From contig ONEJ01000101.1 of assembly GCA_900316805.1 (NCBI GenBank), positions 1 to 37,483 of the forward strand: a stretch of 37,483 bases of DNA. Reading direction: 5' to 3'. The DNA is from an uncultured Lachnospiraceae bacterium. Its GTDB lineage: Bacteria; Bacillota; Clostridia; Lachnospirales; Lachnospiraceae. The position numbers were made by a program, and so were the translations under genes. Below are positions 550 through 23,548 of this stretch, piece after piece (position 1 is the first letter of the stretch; each line of letters starts with the position of its first letter). Below the pieces are notes generated by a model. It made no database searches and had not been told where the DNA came from. It saw only the letters and a program-made list of their open reading frames with translations.

Positions 550-782
550 CTGCGTATAAGTTGCTGCAGGCAATACGCATTCAGCCACGGCGCATTTGTA
601 TTTTCGTTACAGTTCACAGGTATGTGAACTGTAACGGTTTTGGGCAATGCTCCCGCATGCAAAATTGTCCAAAACTGCAAACGGCAGACTTTCATACGGT
701 ATTTTCGGTTCCGAAAATACCTACCTGTGAACAGTAGCGTATTTTCCTTACCTTATACGCAGAAAAATCCGTGTGGGAAGTT
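550..782. repeat. Structured palindromic region, relative of the 7323-7635 element
   Basis: No gene is seen here. Local perfect or near-perfect hairpins are 551-557/573-579, 605-618/623-636 (14-bp arms, loop GGTA), 637-648/664-675 (one mismatch) and 698-708/711-721 (11-bp arms, 2-nt loop). Long-range pairings compete with them: 550-560 with 752-762, and 612-622 with 722-732, both 11 bp and perfect. The right edge, 765-782, matches the end of the 313-bp palindrome (7617-7634) at 17 of 18 bases. On the minus strand this lies directly after the stop of the GGDEF-EAL gene, so it would be the 3' end of that transcript. Confidence 0.6.
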
Positions 783-790
783 TTTATTAT

Positions 791-3502
791 TTATGTATCG
801 CTCTCTTTCATCACATTCTCTCTCATGAAGGCATCGTAAAATTCTTCCTTAGGAACCGGCTTGCCAAAATAAAATCCCTGAATCATCTCCGCCTTCGTCT
901 GCTTAAGGATCTCCACCTGTTCCTTGGTCTCGATACCCTCCACAATACAGTGGATACCAAGATCATTGATGAGGCTGGTCATGTAATCCAGCACGATACG
1001 GCTTTTCTGATTCTTGGTAATCTCCATTACCATAGAGCGATCAATCTTGGCCGAATCAAAATCATACTGGATCAAAACAGACAGATTCGAATAGTGGCTT
1101 CCAAAATCATCCATGGAAAGCCTGAAACCAAGCTGTTTCAGATTATTGGCCACATCCTTGATGACAACATGATCCATGTCACCGATGGTCTCTGTCACCT
1201 CAATATGTATGAGTCCCGTGGAAATACTGTATTTTTCGGTCATTTCTCTGACCCGATTTACAAGGTCCGGATACATAATGGTCATCTTGGAGAAATTCAC
1301 GGAAATCGGTATCATCCTGTGCCCGCACTGCAACTGCTCCTGCTGGTACTTAAACACCTCCTCCAGCACATACAGGTCAATCATATGCACCAGATTATAG
1401 CGCTCCAGAATCGGGATAAATACCCCGGGTCCAACAATTCCCAGTTCGTCATCGATCTGGCGGACAAGTGCCTCTGCACCCTCCGTCCGACTGGTATGGA
1501 TGTTTACCTTCGGCTGCAGATAAACCAGATAATGTCCCCGGTTCATCAGATCCGTGACTTCATCGATCACGCTCTGTTCCATTCGATTGATCAATTCGGA
1601 GCCATGCATCAGCTTGAGCTTATCATTGTTCATGACTACCTCAGCCTCCGTGATCTGAGCGCGGATCCGTGGATGCACACTCCAGCTGTATCCCAATGCA
1701 ACACCAATTTCCAGGTTTTCCAGCTCCCGTCTTACCTGAGTGACCAGAAGTTCTATATCCTGCTTACTGATATCCGGGCAGACCACTAACATCTGATCCT
1801 CATCATAACGGAAGCACCGATAATCCCTGCAGACCTTTTGCAGGACATCTGCCACTTCCACCAGCTTCTTATTCCCCTTCATGTAGCCAAACTGCCTGTT
1901 GATATCAGCCAGATGGATCACATCCGTTGTGATCACGCCGAAGGATTCAAAAACGTTGTTTTTATTTTCCACGGTCCACTGGGTGTAAACTGCGCGGTTC
2001 CACAGCCCCGTCAACTTATCGTGGGTTCTGTCGTATTCCTGCTTCTCCGTCAAATGATCGTGCAGAATGCGAAGCAGCAGACAGGACTCTATCATGCGAA
2101 GGATCGCCGTCTCCTTTGAATGTCTTCTCGGATTAATGACGAGAAGCACACAGGTATGCTCCTCCTGTTCCCGAATGGCCGAAGCGGCCAGAGACCAGAT
2201 CCGGCTTTCCGTCAGGAAATCGTACAGCCGCCTGTGTTCCGCCTGAAAACTAATGACATTCTCCACACGGACTTCTCCTGCATTTACCACAAGATCAATG
2301 AGAGGCTTCAGCTTTCCTCCGTCAAACATCTTTCTGATTTTGGAAGCCATCTCCATGGCGCTTTCTTTATGGCTTTCCCGGATATGAGCTAGTTTCCCAG
2401 CTTCCCCATAAAACAGACAAACACTGTCTGCATCGAAGAACTCCACAAGGGAAAACAGCACACTCTGCACCCCGTTATCATAGCTTTCAGAAACAATAAG
2501 ATTCTGGCATTGCTGCAGCTGCTCTAAAATATCCTGGGCATTTCCTGCGATGGGTGTCAGTGGCTGTAAGCTGCTGTTCTTCGCCTGCTGGTCAATCTCC
2601 TGCTCCACATCCTGATAGAAGATAATCCTGTTTTTCCCTCTGCGCTTTGCTTCATAAACCGCCTGATCTGCCTCGTAATACAGATCCTGAAAGCTCATGC
2701 CCCGGCTTCCCAGGATGCTCACCCCCATGGATGCACAGTATTCCATGTCAAAAATGATGGATTTCAGCCTCTTCCTCAACCGCACACAGAATTCCTCCAT
2801 CTCGCTGCGATCCGAGAAATTCCATACAAAGGCTGCGAACTCATCTCCACCAAGCCGGCCTGCTACGCCCCGGTTACGAACCATATCACCAAGGATCTCT
2901 CCGGTCTGGCTTAACACCAGGTCTCCCACCGCGTGTCCCTGGGTATCATTGATCATCTTGAAATCATCAATATCCATCATGAGAAACAAGGCATTGGATT
3001 TACAGTCCCGGATGGATTTTTCACAGATTTCCTCAAAGGACATATGATTATACACATTCGTGAGAACGTCAAGTTCTGCCTGTCTCTTAATCTTCTCACT
3101 CTGCACCTTTTCCTTATGAACAGAAAGAAAACGGCCAACGATCCGTTCAACGCTGCCATCACTGCCGGCAACACTTACCAGATAGAAACGATGCCACTCC
3201 GGTATTTTCCCCTTTTCTAAAAAATGAGCATCCACCACTGTGTGGGTTGGCTTTTTCATACAGGCGCGGATTGCTCTCTGGTACTTCTTCCTGTCCTCCG
3301 GCGTGATGAAAACTTCCCCTGCTCGTTTATTATTCAAATAACCCGGAATCTGATAAAGCATCACAAACTGCCCATCCACAATTTTGTATACAAATGCCTC
3401 GTCAGATGCAACATCATATTCCAGAATCTTTTCCCGATTCTGTTCCACGATCATTCGTAACAGTTTGCTGTTGTTCTCTTCTTCCCTCTTATTGATATCC
3501 AT
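791..3502 (-). CDS. PAS-like / GGDEF / degenerate GGDEF / EAL cyclic-di-GMP protein
   Basis: A 903-residue soluble protein with no signal peptide or membrane segment. Order: PAS-like region (about 20-135); GGDEF diguanylate cyclase domain (about 140-305) with intact RLGGDEFA; GAF-like linker (about 320-465); a second GGDEF fold (about 475-620) whose motif is degraded to RYDEDQM; C-terminal EAL phosphodiesterase domain (about 640-890). The EAL catalytic set looks complete: GAEALVR, SVNFS, EVTET, MDDFG, AKIDR, EGIET and QGFYF. It could therefore make and break cyclic-di-GMP, probably with the second GGDEF as a regulatory domain. The start chosen is ATG at 3502. A TTG at 3538, overlapping the stop of the HAD gene and preceded by AAGG, is an alternative that adds 12 residues. 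It is the last gene of the purine-HAD cluster. Confidence 0.9.
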   Translation of the reverse strand: MDINKREEENNSKLLRMIVEQNREKILEYDVASDEAFVYKIVDGQFVMLYQIPGYLNNKRAGEVFITPEDRKKYQRAIRACMKKPTHTVVDAHFLEKGKIPEWHRFYLVSVAGSDGSVERIVGRFLSVHKEKVQSEKIKRQAELDVLTNVYNHMSFEEICEKSIRDCKSNALFLMMDIDDFKMINDTQGHAVGDLVLSQTGEILGDMVRNRGVAGRLGGDEFAAFVWNFSDRSEMEEFCVRLRKRLKSIIFDMEYCASMGVSILGSRGMSFQDLYYEADQAVYEAKRRGKNRIIFYQDVEQEIDQQAKNSSLQPLTPIAGNAQDILEQLQQCQNLIVSESYDNGVQSVLFSLVEFFDADSVCLFYGEAGKLAHIRESHKESAMEMASKIRKMFDGGKLKPLIDLVVNAGEVRVENVISFQAEHRRLYDFLTESRIWSLAASAIREQEEHTCVLLVINPRRHSKETAILRMIESCLLLRILHDHLTEKQEYDRTHDKLTGLWNRAVYTQWTVENKNNVFESFGVITTDVIHLADINRQFGYMKGNKKLVEVADVLQKVCRDYRCFRYDEDQMLVVCPDISKQDIELLVTQVRRELENLEIGVALGYSWSVHPRIRAQITEAEVVMNNDKLKLMHGSELINRMEQSVIDEVTDLMNRGHYLVYLQPKVNIHTSRTEGAEALVRQIDDELGIVGPGVFIPILERYNLVHMIDLYVLEEVFKYQQEQLQCGHRMIPISVNFSKMTIMYPDLVNRVREMTEKYSISTGLIHIEVTETIGDMDHVVIKDVANNLKQLGFRLSMDDFGSHYSNLSVLIQYDFDSAKIDRSMVMEITKNQKSRIVLDYMTSLINDLGIHCIVEGIETKEQVEILKQTKAEMIQGFYFGKPVPKEEFYDAFMRENVMKESDT

Positions 3503-3534
3503 AACCCCATCCCCATTGCAAATTACACAATCAT

Positions 3535-4170
3535 TCAATTTAAAACCTTATCAGCTGCCTCAATCAGTTCCTCAAAGGAATGAACCTTCGGTACATCCTC
3601 ACTGACCGTACCAAATCCGTAGGCTGCATGAATAAACTTGATCCCTGCCTGTCTGCTGGAATCATAATCCCCCTGAATATCTCCTACATATACAGCATCC
3701 TCTAATTGATTTCTCTGGTACAAAAGGGCGATATTTTCTCCCTTGGACTTATCATTATTGCCGTAACACTCAATGTCCTCGATCAGGTCATGAAACTTGT
3801 AATGATCTAAAAAAGCCTCAATGTACCCGGCCTGACAGTTGCTGACAATATATAAGTGATACTTCTTTTTCAGTACTTCCATGGTCTGACGGATCTTGGG
3901 GTACAAAGTGCCCCCATGCTCCCGCAGATACTCATTCTCATATTCCCCGCACCGGTCCAGAAGCTCCATACGCTTTTCCTTCGGCAGGTCAGCAAAAAGA
4001 ATATCCGCAATCACATCCATAGTCTTTCCCATGACAGACTGCATATCTTCCGCCGTCAGCGGTTCTCTCTGATAGTCGCTCTGACGGATGACCTCATTCC
4101 AGGAGGCCACTACCTCCGGCGCTGAATCCCAAAGGGTTCCGTCCATATCAAAAATGATACCTTTTTTCAT
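3535..4170 (-). CDS. HAD-family phosphatase (phosphoglycolate phosphatase-like)
   Basis: 211 residues, the usual length for a HAD subfamily IA hydrolase. Motif I is FDMDGT (nucleophile Asp and acid-base Asp) at residues 7-12. Motif II is IVSNC. The motif III Lys is in NNDKSKGEN, and motif IV is VGDIQGDYDSS. A helical cap lies between motifs I and II. The family removes phosphate from small metabolites such as 2-phosphoglycolate, sugar phosphates or pyrophosphate; the substrate cannot be read from sequence. The start codon overlaps the purD stop (ATGA) and its own stop touches the GGDEF-EAL gene, so it is translationally coupled on both sides. The neighbourhood hints at a nucleotide or sugar-phosphate clean-up role, which is inference. 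Confidence 0.88.
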   Translation of the reverse strand: MKKGIIFDMDGTLWDSAPEVVASWNEVIRQSDYQREPLTAEDMQSVMGKTMDVIADILFADLPKEKRMELLDRCGEYENEYLREHGGTLYPKIRQTMEVLKKKYHLYIVSNCQAGYIEAFLDHYKFHDLIEDIECYGNNDKSKGENIALLYQRNQLEDAVYVGDIQGDYDSSRQAGIKFIHAAYGFGTVSEDVPKVHSFEELIEAADKVLN

Positions 4171-5604: not shown

Positions 5605-6231
5605 TTAATCCGAGATATGTACCTTACCATCTACTACGGAGACTTTACCGTTCGCGATCAGGTCGATGGCGCAGGGAAGGATCTTCCACTCGGCCTGCTC
5701 CATGACGCGGCGCTGTAAGATTTCCGGGGTATCTCCCTCTTTTATTTCTACGGCTTTCTGCAGGATGATGGGGCCGGTGTCGGTTCCCTCGTCTACAAAG
5801 TGTACGGTAGCTCCGGTGACACGGACGCCGCGGGCCAGGGCTCCTTCGTGTACCTTCAGGCCATAGTAGCCTTTGCCGCAGAAGGAGGGGATTAAGGACG
5901 GATGGATGTTGATGATGCGGTTTCTGTATTTCTGGATCATCTGCTCCGGAATGACTACAAGGAAGCCCGCCAGTACTACCAGATCTACCTGATAGCTGTC
6001 CAACTGCCGCAGGAAGTCCTCGTTGAAGGCTTCTCTTGATTCATAATCCTTGGGGCTGATGCAGATGGCTTCTATGCCATGGTTCTTTGCCCGCTCTAAG
6101 GCGTAGGCTCCCGGATTGTTGCTGATGACAACGGAAATCTGTGTGTTTGTGATGATTCCGTTATCAATGGCATCCATGATGGCCTGCAGGTTTGTTCCGC
6201 CTCCGGATACACATACTGCTATTTTTAGCAT
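5605..6231 (-). CDS. purN: Phosphoribosylglycinamide formyltransferase
   Basis: Transfers a formyl group from 10-formyl-tetrahydrofolate to GAR, the third purine step. 208 residues, normal for PurN. It begins [17 protein letters not shown], the phosphate-binding GGGTNLQ loop. The catalytic block is present: [10 protein letters not shown] (Asn and His) and [19 protein letters not shown] (the Asp-containing loop). The start overlaps the end of purM (ATGCTAA), which indicates coupling. Confidence 0.97.
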
Positions 6232-7250
6232 AATGTTACGCCTTTCTCTCCCTCTGTGATCTTACCTACGATATATGGGGTATCTCCGGCTGCCCTGATA
6301 GCTTCCATGGTCTTATCCACGTCAGCAGGATCTACTGCCAGTACCATACCAAGACCCATGTTATAGGTATTGTACATCATATGCTCTTCTACATCGCCCT
6401 CACGTGCCATCAGGGTAAAGATTGGAGGAACCGGATAGCTGTTCTTCTCGATCACGGCATGCTTGCCCTCCGGAAGCATACGTGGAACATTCTCATAGAA
6501 GCCGCCTCCCGTGATGTGGCTGCATGCTTTTACACGGACACCGGCATCCTTGATGGATTTTAATGCCTTCACATAGATGCGGGTTGGTGCAAGAAGTGCC
6601 TCGCCCAGTGTGGTTCCCAGCTCATCAATATATGTATTCAGTGTTTCTTCGTTCATGCGGAAAATCTTACGCACCAGAGAAAATCCGTTGGAATGAACTC
6701 CGGAGCTTGCCATTCCGATCAGCACATCATCTGCCTTAAGGTCGGCACCGGTAATGATATCCTTCTCATCCACGATTCCTACGGCAAAGCCTGCCAGATC
6801 GTACTCATCCTCCGGCATCAGTCCCGGATGTTCTGCGGTCTCGCCGCCGATCAGTGCACAGCCGGACTGCTTACAGCCCTCTGCCACACCGCTGACGATG
6901 GTAGCGATCTTCTCAGGATAATTTTTGCCACAGGCAATATAATCTAAGAAAAATAATGGCTCACCGCCTGCACAGGCAATATCGTTCACGCACATTGCCA
7001 CACAGTCAATTCCGATGGTATCATGCTTGTCTAAAAGGAATGCCAGTTTAATCTTTGTTCCAACTCCGTCCGTTCCGGATACCAGTGTAGGCTTCTCCAT
7101 ATTCTTAAATGACTCCATAGAAAAAGCACCGGAGAATCCGCCCAGTCCGGTCAATACTTCCGGACGCATTGTATTCTGTACGTACTTCTTCATAAGCTCC
7201 ACTGACTTGTATCCAGCCTCAATATCCACACCGGAATTCTTGTAATCCAT
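6225..7250 (-). CDS. purM: Phosphoribosylformylglycinamidine cyclo-ligase (AIR synthetase)
   Basis: Closes the imidazole ring of AIR using ATP, the fifth purine step. 341 residues, full length. PurM landmarks are visible: [13 protein letters not shown] at the N-terminus, [30 protein letters not shown] and [12 protein letters not shown]. The start at 7250 is preceded by AGGAGG (7258-7263, complement). Between purE and purM lies the 313-bp palindrome, so purM may need its own promoter; a weak candidate is at 7283-7312. The stop overlaps the purN start. Confidence 0.97.
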
Positions 7251-7282
7251 TGATTTTTCCTCCTAAAAACGTATTTGCCTGT

Positions 7283-7312
7283 ATTTTATCATATTTTCCA
7301 GCATTTTAGCAA
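7283..7312 (-). promoter_or_regulatory. Possible purM promoter
   Basis: On the minus strand, TTGCTA (7307-7312) and TAAAAT (7283-7288) are separated by 18 bases, about 35 bases before the purM start and downstream of the long palindrome. The match is moderate in AT-rich DNA. Confidence 0.35.
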
Positions 7313-7322
7313 TTATTAATTC

Positions 7323-7635
7323 AAACTTCCCACATGGATTTCCCATCGCCCCCGCCTGCCACATGGATTCTCCGGGGATGGATAGCGGAACTCGCATCAA
7401 ATTGCTGATTTGTCTGGTATCGCATTTCGGCTCTTTTTAGATTTACGTTCATTCGACAGCTGGACACTTCCGGCCTGGAATCCGCCTGAAGTGTTCAGCT
7501 GGCGAATGTACACGAACTTAGAGCCGAAATGCGATACCTGACAAATCTACGCAATTTGTGCGAAATATTCCTCTATCCATCTCCGGAGAATCCATGTGGC
7601 AGGCGGGGGCGATGGGAAATCCATGTGGGAAGTTT
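7323..7635. repeat. 313-bp long palindromic element between purE and purM
   Basis: The outer arms 7323-7375 and 7583-7635 are perfect 53-bp inverted repeats. After one mismatch pairing resumes (7377-7385 with 7573-7581), then 7416-7434 with 7520-7538 (shifted by 4 bases), then 7450-7470 with 7488-7508 (two mismatches). A 17-nt loop (7471-7487) remains. Total arm length is about 148 bp. CCACATGGATT occurs twice inside the left arm (7330-7340, 7359-7369). The direct repeat TTATTAAT flanks the element (7313-7320, 7639-7646) and could be a target-site duplication, though it is AT-rich. No ORF is encoded. It starts 6 bp after the purE stop. Half and diverged copies are at 12118-12203 and 550-782. 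It resembles a MITE or large REP-type element, but I do not recognise a named family. Confidence 0.9.
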
Positions 7636-7641
7636 TAGTTA

Positions 7642-8142
7642 TTAATAGTTTTTATAACCTACTTCCTGAAGGCGTGCGTTCTTGGCTTTTACCTGCTCCT
7701 CCAGATTCTTTGCGTAATCCTTGACCTTTGCCAGGATTTCTTCGTCTCCTACTGCTAAAATCTTTGCAGCAAGAATGGCTGCGTTCTTGGCGCCGTCAAT
7801 GGCAACGGTAGCCACCGGGATTCCCGGGGGCATCTGCATGATGGAGAACACGGCATCCATGCCGTCCAGCTTGCTTCCTGCGAGAGGTACACCGATAACC
7901 GGCAGGGCAGACAGTGCTGCGCACATGCCCGGAAGAGCTGCTGCCATTCCCGCTCCTGCGATCAATACCTTTTCTCCTCTTTCCTCTGCGCCCCTTACCC
8001 ACTGGATCAGTTCATCGGGCTCACGATGGGCTGAGATAATTGCCATCTCATAATCGATACCCAGTTCCTCCAGCATTTCTGCGGCTTTTGCCATGACCTT
8101 AAGGTCCGAGTCACTTCCCATTACAATTCCTACCTGTGGCAT
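7642..8142 (-). CDS. purE: N5-CAIR mutase / AIR carboxylase
   Basis: Carboxylation step of purine synthesis, forming CAIR. 166 residues, normal PurE length. It starts PQVGIVMGSDSDLKVM, the conserved phosphate-binding segment, followed by IISAHREPDEL (catalytic His), GAGMAAALPGMCAA and PVIGVPL. No purK lies next to it. Where I recall E. coli PurE having GAGGAAHLPG, this protein has GAGMAAALPG, with Ala in place of His. It may thus be the class that uses CO2 directly rather than N5-CAIR, which is an inference. The ribosome site AAGGAGG lies 7-8 bases before the ATG. It is first in the purE-M-N-D order. Confidence 0.96.
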   Translation of the reverse strand: MPQVGIVMGSDSDLKVMAKAAEMLEELGIDYEMAIISAHREPDELIQWVRGAEERGEKVLIAGAGMAAALPGMCAALSALPVIGVPLAGSKLDGMDAVFSIMQMPPGIPVATVAIDGAKNAAILAAKILAVGDEEILAKVKDYAKNLEEQVKAKNARLQEVGYKNY

Positions 8143-8197
8143 TTTTGTTTCCTCCTTATGTTTTCCCTCACATATTTCATCTATATTCAGAGTTCAT

Positions 8198-8213
8198 ATC
8201 CTGTATACAGGAT
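8198..8213. promoter_or_regulatory. 16-bp perfect palindrome upstream of purE
   Basis: ATCCTGTATACAGGAT is a perfect palindrome 55 bp upstream of the purE start and 14 bp beyond the stop of the M29 gene. It could be an operator for a dimeric regulator of purE or a small 3' hairpin. The same half-sites recur at 10764-10780. Confidence 0.4.
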
Positions 8214-8226
8214 TGATTTCTGCCCG

Positions 8227-10293
8227 TTACATATCTTCCAGCGGTTCATTCAAAGGCTCCGTCCCCGGCACCACGAACCGTCCGTCCGCGATAATATCCT
8301 CCGTTGTCCCATCCTTACGGATCACCGTGATCCGGTCTAACTCATCGTAAGGAATGGTGATGTCTGTGTGACAGTTAAAATAAGCCTGTGACACATCCGT
8401 TTTCCGAAGCAGGGAAATCTCATTGTCCCTTGCCACGATGGCTCTTCCATCCGGATTATACGTCATATGATCCTCGTCATAGGTGTAGCAGGTATCCCCC
8501 ACGGCAAAGTGGGGACCGGTTTTCTCTGCGATGAGAATCGGCAGCTTATCTGAAATGTCATATTGCCTTGCCATCCGATAGGCGGTGGTATTGGTACCGA
8601 TGGCAAATTCGCCCATGGGCAATGTTTTGTGGTGGAAAAGGACGTTGTCCTCGATATACCGCCGGTTCTCCTCCTCCGATGTAAAGTTGGTGCAGGAATA
8701 ACGAACCACCCGTCCTTCCTCAAACTCCAGCTTCAGGTTTTCAAAACGCAGGTCATTGAGATAAACCTGGCTCACAAAAAGTGTCCCTTCCGTTCCCTTC
8801 AGTACCGGCGTGGTAAACACCTCTCCCACGGGAATATTCACATCTGCCACGCAGTTTTCAAAGGCCGTTTCCTTCTTCGAATCCGTAAGGGGATAGATTT
8901 TCACATACAGGTCTGTGCAGTTACCGTTTTTGCCGGTAATGTGAACCCGGTCCGCCGAATCCATAACCTCAATAATCTTCTGCTGCATATCCCGGTACAG
9001 GGTATAATCCAGCGTGTTAATCCGCAGGGTTTCTTCAAATATCGTTTCAAACTGCTCCCCGATGGAGGGCAGCGGAAAAGCAATAATGGTAAAGCTTCTC
9101 TCTTCCCCGTGAATATAGCGATTGATGAGACTGCTTTTCTCACTTCGCAAATGCACGGACAGCTTCTGCTGCTTTTCTTTATATTGCAGGCGCTCTTTCT
9201 TCTGCTGCGGAGCAAAAGGGGTCTGCCCGAATACATCGATGACCGCAGGTCCTCCGTACAATGGTGCCTGTTTCTTCTGCTGTTCCCACACCAGACGATC
9301 CACCTCAAGGCTGCGCTCCACAAAGGCCTTATCCAGCCATAAGGAGTCATCCTCCTTATGGTCATAGCTGTACTGCCGGTTCAGCGTAACAGAATAAGGC
9401 TTCAGCACCGGCTTTAACCCTATTTTTTCAAAATTGGAAACTGCTGCCCGTATCATGCGTTCAAAACCCATGGGATAACGGATCTCCACCACAGATTTTA
9501 AAGAAATATCTTTGCCGTTTGCGGCAAACCCAATCCGGTATCCTTCCGTAAAAACATCTGCCATGGACTGAATTTCTTCCTGTGGCAGTTTCCATAAAAA
9601 TACAGCGGTTTTCTTTTCATCCTCTCCGATGCACAATCCATACCGGTACAGATAGGAAGGCTCCGACAGATCCGCCTCCATCACAATGTCAAAAGCGAGA
9701 TGTCCCTTTGCCGGATCCAGCAGCCTTGTGATGGCTTCCTCGTTAAAGATTTCCGTGTAATCGTGCATAAAGGAATACAGGATATCCTTCAGTTCCTGTC
9801 CCCTCAGCTCCTTTGGATTTTCAAAACAGTTAAACAGTTCCACCAGAAGCTCTGCATAAATGCACAGGAAACGGATATCTCCCTCCATACAGTAGGGATA
9901 AATTCCGTGAATCTTTGCGTCTACAACAGAGAGAATCTGTCCGAACTCCTCTCCCAGCTTCTCTGCCGCAAAGGAAGGATTTGCATAGCTGTCTTTGTAA
10001 TCCGGTTCCTGCAGATCCAGAAACAGCCGGCGGTTTAACCGGATTCCATCCTTTTCGCTCATGGCAGACAGTTTCCCCTCAAGAGCCGCCTGCGTCAAGG
10101 CATAGAGGTTTAAAAGAAGGTCTGCCATCTGGACAAAATAGTCCTGATACCCTTCTTCGATGCTTCCGGCATGCTCACTTCGGATTTCCTCCAGCCGTTC
10201 CATCATAAGCTCCAGCCGCTCCCAGTATTCCTCGTTTCTACTGTTTTGCATTTCCTTATTTTCCATCGAACAAATAACCTCGGTTTCTACCAT
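8227..10293 (-). CDS. M29-family (thermophilic-type) aminopeptidase
   Basis: 688 residues, longer than the classical ~410-residue M29 enzymes because of a large N-terminal extension. The C-terminal third carries the M29 hallmarks: DVNIPVGEVFTTP, PMGEFAIGTN and AEKTGPHFAVGDT, which hold the metal-binding Glu and His residues of a two-metal exopeptidase. The N-terminal ~330 residues are helical and acidic, without a signal peptide, so the enzyme should be cytoplasmic and act in peptide turnover. The ATG at 10293 was taken; an in-frame ATG at 10266 is equally possible, and neither has a strong ribosome site. Long M29 proteins of this type are common in Clostridia (from memory). Confidence 0.85.
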   Translation of the reverse strand: MVETEVICSMENKEMQNSRNEEYWERLELMMERLEEIRSEHAGSIEEGYQDYFVQMADLLLNLYALTQAALEGKLSAMSEKDGIRLNRRLFLDLQEPDYKDSYANPSFAAEKLGEEFGQILSVVDAKIHGIYPYCMEGDIRFLCIYAELLVELFNCFENPKELRGQELKDILYSFMHDYTEIFNEEAITRLLDPAKGHLAFDIVMEADLSEPSYLYRYGLCIGEDEKKTAVFLWKLPQEEIQSMADVFTEGYRIGFAANGKDISLKSVVEIRYPMGFERMIRAAVSNFEKIGLKPVLKPYSVTLNRQYSYDHKEDDSLWLDKAFVERSLEVDRLVWEQQKKQAPLYGGPAVIDVFGQTPFAPQQKKERLQYKEKQQKLSVHLRSEKSSLINRYIHGEERSFTIIAFPLPSIGEQFETIFEETLRINTLDYTLYRDMQQKIIEVMDSADRVHITGKNGNCTDLYVKIYPLTDSKKETAFENCVADVNIPVGEVFTTPVLKGTEGTLFVSQVYLNDLRFENLKLEFEEGRVVRYSCTNFTSEEENRRYIEDNVLFHHKTLPMGEFAIGTNTTAYRMARQYDISDKLPILIAEKTGPHFAVGDTCYTYDEDHMTYNPDGRAIVARDNEISLLRKTDVSQAYFNCHTDITIPYDELDRITVIRKDGTTEDIIADGRFVVPGTEPLNEPLEDM

Positions 10294-12117: not shown

Positions 12118-12203
12118 AACTTCCCACATGGATTTCCCGCGTTTTTGTCCGCCACCGGGATTCTCCGGGAATGAGGAGTGGGCGGATAGCGAAATCAGCG
12201 GCA
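12118..12203. repeat. Half copy of the palindromic element, after pyrD
   Basis: The first 21 bases (12118-12138) are identical to one end of the 7323-7635 palindrome. GGATTCTCCGGG (12158-12169) and GGATAGCG (12184-12191) align with 7365-7376 and 7380-7387. The second arm is missing, so this copy cannot form the long hairpin. It abuts the pyrD stop codon (12212). Confidence 0.75.
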
Positions 12204-19967: not shown

Positions 19968-19986
19968 AGTTTGTTTCTGTAATCCT

Positions 19987-20155
19987 GATAGCTCTCCATC
20001 TGCGCGCTGCGCTTCTGACAGTCATACGGCTGTTAACCGTATGCCCAAGAAAAGAACTGCAGACATCCCTTTCTTTCGGCGCTCCTCCCTTTCTGCTGTG
20101 TTCTCCTGTGCCTGCCACATCCCACAGCCTACTCATAATTTGCGCAACCTCTACC
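19987..20155 (-). ncRNA. Lysine riboswitch (L box)
   Basis: About 169 nt on the minus strand upstream of dapA. The conserved L-box blocks appear in order: GGTAGAGGTTGCGCAAAT, ATGAGTA, GAAAGGGAGGAGCGCCGAA, then CATACGG paired with CCGTATG (20023-20029 / 20037-20043), ACTGTCA, and GGAGAGCTATC. P1 closes between GGTAG (20151-20155) and CTATC (19987-19991). The B. subtilis lysC leader has the same order of elements. It should repress dapAB when lysine is abundant by favouring the terminator at 19940-19967. Confidence 0.92.
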
Positions 20156-20176
20156 ATATGCTATTCACTTGTCATT

Positions 20177-23477: not shown

Positions 23478-23498
23478 ATTTTTATTTGTATTGAAAAA

Positions 23499-23548
23499 GA
23501 AGGAGACGGGCATGTTTTCCAAGGAAAGCATGCTCGTCTCCTTCTTTT
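23499..23548. terminator. Bidirectional intrinsic terminator, typA / HD-GYP gene
   Basis: 16-bp arms at 23499-23514 and 23529-23544 with a single G-T wobble, flanked by an A run on the left and a T run on the right. Both strands therefore end in a U tract. It serves convergent typA and the HD-GYP gene. Confidence 0.88.

Follow-up and report, generated by a model that had tools for sequence, protein, structure and literature searches.

Giant, probably mobile hairpins of gut Lachnospiraceae, a family recognised from a palindrome between purE and purM

The window analysed here, i.e. the whole stretch of 37,483 nucleotides from an uncultured Lachnospiraceae bacterium, carries a large palindrome between two purine genes, and the question is how it came to lie there and what keeps its arms complementary. 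The upstream gene is purE (7642-8142, minus strand; PF00731) and the downstream gene is purM (6225-7250, minus strand; PF00586/PF02769); purN- and purD-type genes lie beyond them. The palindrome ends 6 bp from the end of purE, and purM starts 72 bp past its other side, which is where the original prediction had placed it (6 bp after the purE stop, about 70 bp before purM). The genome of the window, G000 below, is a 2.25-Mb draft in 103 contigs and is 82% complete.

The palindrome is real. Its arms at 7312-7390 and 7568-7646 are 79 nt long and 94% complementary, and a second paired block lies at 7407-7434/7520-7547. The outer left arm (7323-7390, plus strand) and its reverse complement, the outer right arm (7568-7635, minus strand), pair perfectly over the outermost 53 bp, as read directly from the sequence. 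The inner left block (plus strand, GATTTGTCTGGTATCG...), with which the inner right block (minus strand) pairs, belongs to a layer common to the relatives, called the B layer below. The segment 7312-7646 folds with a minimum free energy of -246.6 kcal/mol, compared to -94.4 (sd 5.7) for 100 dinucleotide shuffles, none of which folds as well (z -26.7). Arm search, direct reading and fold thus bear out the predicted near-symmetric palindrome with perfect 53-bp arms. The suggestion that the outer arms are newer is not supported as stated: the inner differences between left and right are common to the relatives, and the centre is deleted here. In other words, the inner mismatches are not simply decay, since the relatives keep the same left/right differences at these positions (read by eye).

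A consensus scan for terminator-like sites, i.e. for a short GC-rich stem with a run of T behind it, gave none in 7200-7760, and no Rfam 15 family matches the palindrome region at its gathering score. MIR821 was rejected as a candidate on the window copy; its E-value is low, but with 48.8 bits it stays below its gathering score of 249. We likewise dropped a small ORF in the right arm, as its frame hits stops in other species (read by eye). Elsewhere in the window there is a Lysine riboswitch (RF00168, 103 bits) at 19981-20161 on the minus strand, and a 26-bp inverted repeat with a 2-nt spacer (92% complementary) at 23495-23548 is possibly a terminator.

How the palindrome arrived is answered by comparison with an empty site. 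A purE match is present in 59 of the 62 genomes of the genus, and the closest, with a 97% identical PurE, is that of G018; the spacer comparison took in 8 of the fetched purE loci. On either side of the insertion point the purE-purM spacer of G018 can be aligned with the window, and it has no sequence between the two parts, i.e. the site is empty. Window positions 6201-7320 and 7639-9200 map to G018 positions that overlap by exactly 8 bases, and the insert is therefore 318 bp plus the duplicated TTATTAAT. The empty allele reads GCAATTATTAATAGTTTTTATA, while the window reads GCAATTATTAATTC[element]TAGTTATTAATAGTTTTTATA, so that TTATTAAT occurs once in G018 and twice in the window, at 7313-7320 and 7639-7646, around the 318 extra bp. 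By this comparison the inserted element spans 7321-7638 (plus strand, left arm first) and has the form TC-AAACTTCC...GGAAGTTT-TAG. The right copy of the duplication includes the purE stop codon (7642-7644), and the C-terminus of PurE is ...EVGYKNY in both genomes. The predicted target duplication is thereby supported, with 8 bp that are single at a clean empty site. The 76 nt around the target in G018 fold at -1.6 kcal/mol (z 0.5), i.e. there is no stem-loop at this one site. In the mRNA of the purine operon, a very stable hairpin would be expected between purE and purMND.

The element is also not alone. In G000 the end motif AAACTTCCCRCA has 50 occurrences and its reversed control none; in G018 there are 26 against a single control occurrence. 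When facing motifs are merged by hand they define 43 places in G000 and 19 in G018; one of them, inside a gene on contig C103 of G000, looks like chance. The window arm matches many other places in both genomes, and the copies at many of these loci have similar outer arms. Copies range from 34-bp hairpins with little beyond the ends up to about 510 bp, and some are solitary ends. The window itself holds such a remnant at 765-783 (minus strand), 7 bp from the stop of a GGDEF/EAL gene (791-3538), and a decayed, one-armed fragment of the same family at 12118-12173 (plus strand). The multi-copy family together with the clean empty site in G018 supports mobility, and both parts of the proposed check, on copy number and on empty alleles with one TTATTAAT, turned out as expected of a mobile element.

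Flanking direct repeats are found at a minority of the copies. Repeats of at least 7 bp (7 to 11 bp) flank 6 of 26 complete copies, against 3.7% of 650 cross-pairings; the figures are 4 of 26 against 0.6% for at least 8 bp and 2 of 26 against 0 of 650 for at least 9 bp. The remaining 20 copies show no clear repeat. A spread from 7 to 11 bp fits a single DDE enzyme only loosely. A second site that is filled in G018 and empty in G005 belongs to locus L049 (G018:C14, 38866-40526), where a gene is flanked by two complete hairpins at a distance of about 1 kb from each other; this gene region is present in G005 without the second hairpin. The site lies directly before the AAGGAG of the downstream gene, and the two alleles differ by 14 extra nt beyond the element, with no clear duplication. 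At the site of L048 the element is absent from G005, with a divergence too great for reading a duplication, and no empty site for L038 was found in 5 genomes. Near some copies there are further peculiarities. Around position 1008 of L059 a response-regulator-like frame appears to enter a one-ended element fragment, possibly as a truncation or fusion (by eye), and L184 has tandem 61-bp repeats and 33-bp repeats adjoining an element end (554-1041 and 1370-1486).

The window copy is not the full form. Its positions 7319-7491 correspond to 943-1116, and 7484-7653 to 585-756, of the query that contains a 509-bp element of G018; compared with that element 186 bp are missing, the core included, and the two matches overlap by 8 bp at the junction (7484-7491). 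To judge from these alignments the window copy is a deletion derivative, and the 8-base overlap is as after a deletion between short repeats. The 509-bp copy of G018 lies between a perfect TTGACA-16-TATAAT site and a ribosome-binding-like sequence, and given these flanks it may well be transcribed.

Core-bearing relatives are about 250-660 bp long and patchily distributed across Lachnospiraceae, as is expected of mobile DNA. A core pattern with 19 fixed bases matched 23 stretches in genome contigs, 11 of them from the bin CAMFDG01 (G018); most of the others come from metagenome bins that carry the label Lachnospiraceae, Lachnospira, Eubacterium, Clostridiales, Eubacteriales or Bacillota, but Eubacterium sp. 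AF22-9, which is not labelled as such a bin, is among them too. In Lachnospira eligens circular plasmid records match as well (NC_012780.1 and NZ_CP085937.1), that of strain ATCC 27750 with a copy of 513 bp, and one of Agathobacter rectalis (NZ_CP143948.1) matches the core part only; a search of plasmids with the outer arm gave no match. Phage records gave none either. Among viral contigs the core pattern has one match, coding-like by eye and without a palindrome, a stricter core pattern has none, and the end pattern has 7, all of which lack a facing partner end in the next 3.5 kb downstream, so these 7 are probably chance. A covariance model of the core, which was run with strict filters and would miss copies lacking a core, recognises 6 of the 62 genus genomes and, in the order, 4 of 392 genomes from 3 of 173 genera (own genome counted in both), while a DNA search with the 509-bp element matches 7 of the 62. 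The outlier among the matches, a strongly diverged relative of the core in G411 (L231, 1476-1681; E 8.8e-12), lies upstream of the start of a gene that is guaB-like by eye.

From outside to inside the element has short ends, variable arms and the B layer, followed by a stem that varies and, innermost, a core of about 155 nt. In the window clade the recurring ends are TC-AAACTTCC / CTA-AAACTTCC. Ends with AAACTTC are found in the clade of G000 and G018 and in some others; they were not recognised in the G044, L. eligens or A. rectalis-type copies. The B layer is missing in some copies, and a layer can be absent from both arms at once, e.g. in the 262-bp copy L165. In three G018 copies (L054, L089/L162 and L163/L180) one side of the apical stem has two additional small hairpins, the same in all three, which looks like the spread of a subfamily after that insertion.

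The core has conserved mismatched loops, whereas the arms around it differ between genomes and nevertheless pair within each element. We aligned 15 cores, without L054 and L089, which have the extra hairpin insert; the rows include near-identical or orthologous sequences (L075/L139, L096/L102/L103). Of the 57 consensus pairs 35 have double-sided changes. The share of paired cells is 93.8%, compared to 79.7% in shuffled alignments, and double-change cells number 142 against 46.7, values that none of 500 shuffles reaches; in the number of pair types the alignment does not exceed the shuffles (87 of the 500 reach its value), and the other four of the five covariation measures may be inflated by the relatedness of the sequences. 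Conservation in the core is higher in unpaired columns than in paired ones, with majority frequencies of 0.86 and 0.78. The own distal arms of an element score 39-130 against each other in 16 of 17 elements (19 in UBA2821), and the best foreign arm scores 14-28; from this set of 20 elements, 3 without a recognisable core boundary were left out, and one more was placed on a fallback boundary.

Such a pattern could mean that a structured, large non-coding RNA is the functional unit, its RNA genes being spread by retrotransposition or transposition. The strong covariation and the conserved internal loops of the core speak for this, and so does the RNAalifold consensus structure of the core with 32 G.U against 10 A.C combinations, a count that is biased since RNAalifold treats G.U as paired. 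Under selection for pairing in RNA one would expect a greater tolerance of G.U than of A.C. Selection on RNA was in fact the explanation favoured at first, for the covariation and the G.U excess, and it was dropped when the excess disappeared in structure-free recounts. Mismatches counted directly in the arms of 17 elements are 62 G.U and 58 A.C, and the counts on 27 elements, each oriented by hand, show no clear G.U excess (core 62/44, p 0.10; arms 98/125, p 0.08). Moreover, the Rfam searches gave no credible match in the window region or, in a permissive search up to E 5, in seven loci, and the window copy has no core. We therefore regard the RNA explanation as unlikely. As A.C is as common as G.U, the pairing of the arms seems to be kept at the DNA level rather than by selection on RNA. 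The mechanism is perhaps template switching, which we infer rather than observe: inverted template switching has been proposed for hairpins, and inverted loops or spacers are described, in the sections of PMC8794818 and PMC8604942 drawn on here, and a DNA-level correction of that kind fits the mismatch counts. At the orthologous site shared by L096 and L103 the flanks are in one orientation (5,961 bp, 88%), while the inner 210 bp are reversed (95%), and L102 shows the same inversion of the interior relative to its flanks when compared with L103. At another orthologous site G014 (L060) and G016 (L061) keep opposite halves of the element.

The position of the copies at genes has to be weighed as well. 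Of 24 complete copies, 14 have the end of a gene no more than 17 bp away (raw count with a crude ORF caller; L211 and L184a of the 26 were left out). In a second set of 15 palindromes (six G382 loci, five G044 loci, four others), both ends lie no further than 21 bp from the stop codons of two convergent genes in 6, and at least one end does so in 11, again as raw counts with a crude ORF caller. The gene-end position may reflect a preference, survival only there or an outward growth of the arms. The last of these corresponds to a palindrome that grows in place, i.e. a small gene-end hairpin that is extended outward by inverted template switching, with the one flank copied onto the other, until it is stopped by coding sequence. 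The convergent stops are in accordance with this, as are the outer arms of G044 and G382, which pair with themselves and yet are little or not at all shared between copies (the G044 copies have only the inner part in common), and the arms of L256, which run into both coding ends. However, when L256 was compared with orthologs for the overwriting of one gene tail by the other, both tails looked largely native, which does not support overwriting except perhaps of the last few codons; the window copy is a clean insertion with a target duplication, and similar outer arms recur at many loci of G000 and G018. Growth in place has on the whole a low probability in our view, although it could hold for G044 and G382 and yet be false for the window. 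The proximity to stop codons, also seen after purE inside an operon, would equally suit an element of the REP/BIME kind that benefits the host at the 3' end by protecting the upstream mRNA or setting operon stoichiometry. We consider this very improbable: the element is absent from the purE-purM spacer of the closest relative, the core model has no match in 56 of the 62 genomes of the genus, and the gene-end position may simply reflect which insertions survive. A false inverted duplication produced by assembly at the contig ends of metagenome bins has one point in its favour, as at least 25 of the host bin's 206 contig ends break off within the element (hand tally). Complete copies nevertheless lie inside contigs of several genomes and in the circular L. 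eligens plasmid records, and the arms differ between genomes, which refutes an artefact for the family and leaves it next to no credence here. The truncated contigs rather indicate that full-length copies are probably under-represented in the draft.

The explanation that we favour, and hold to be probable, is a non-coding, MITE-like foldback element in the form of a giant palindrome that is mobilised in trans, often at gene 3' ends, with the pairing of its arms kept at the DNA level. An integrase or transposase acting in trans would recognise the element ends and would cut AT-rich DNA in a staggered manner, often at gene 3' ends, while inverted template switching within the hairpin would maintain the complementarity of the arms and flip the interior. 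The original prediction had called for a transposase in trans; this fits in so far as no ORF of at least 80 aa overlaps 7321-7638, but the enzyme itself was not found, and no autonomous copy or transposase with these ends was recognised in the drafts of G000 and G018 (82% and 80% complete). The only inward-facing pair of ends 1-3 kb apart in these two genomes is formed by the two hairpins around the gene of L049. A bolder, rather doubtful idea is that of self-perpetuating mobile DNA hairpins: the single-stranded hairpin would move or serve as a template, a protein would read its conserved mismatched loops, and the arms would be recopied from each other continually, in some genomes reaching up to or into neighbouring genes, so that the arms would be free in sequence and only self-complementarity, short ends and loops would be inherited.

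Long palindromes are generally regarded as unstable in bacteria, as in E. coli with SbcCD, and yet one genome has dozens of end motifs and several have copies of 500-660 bp. The family allows tests of the tolerance of long palindromes, of how arms stay complementary without evident selection on RNA, and of how non-coding elements move in common gut Lachnospiraceae. In practical terms, contig ends of the bin stop in the element, as counted above, and operons such as that of purE and purM receive a hairpin of very high stability.

What we describe is a mobile giant hairpin family in gut Lachnospiraceae for which no earlier description was recognised when an open-access library was searched, most subscription journals being outside this scope. 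We do not claim membership in a named family, since no parent transposon was found. The EFAR (Enterococcus faecalis repeats) are palindromic, very variable in length and built of modular, nested segments; their empty sites are known and they insert into small stem-loops. Compared by description and not by sequence, the present element is similar in its palindromic form, variable length, nested modules and known empty sites, but the empty site of the window, the one examined, folds no better than shuffles. REPs are located at gene 3' ends. In the sections of PMC3733652 used here, the REP/BIME or GTAG/CGTC-tagged palindromes are units of 20-40 bp with a terminal tag; these are palindromic repeats too, whereas the present unit is up to about 660 bp long and comes with a target duplication, the units themselves being compared by size rather than by tag or RAYT transposase. 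The similarity to bacterial MITEs, as far as the sections of PMC10969869 used here describe them, is broader: both are small, non-coding and multi-copy, with inverted termini, a target duplication, size variants and truncated copies. The 318-bp window element is within the MITE size of under about 600 bp, although some relatives reach about 660 bp; it has terminal inverted repeats and a target duplication, although most copies show no repeat; and the copies are dispersed over the 43 and 19 places mentioned. Unlike in those MITEs, the arms here pair along nearly the whole element, there is a conserved core of mismatched loops, the arms are replaced wholesale between genomes, and no parental insertion sequence was found. 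Finally, the maintenance of hairpins by template switching predicts, in the sections of PMC8794818 and PMC8604942 used here, a homogenisation of arms and an inversion of the loop or spacer; complementary arms and an inverted interior are likewise seen in this family, although the cases described there are RNA hairpins and inverted repeats of yeast genes, whereas here it is a mobile element.
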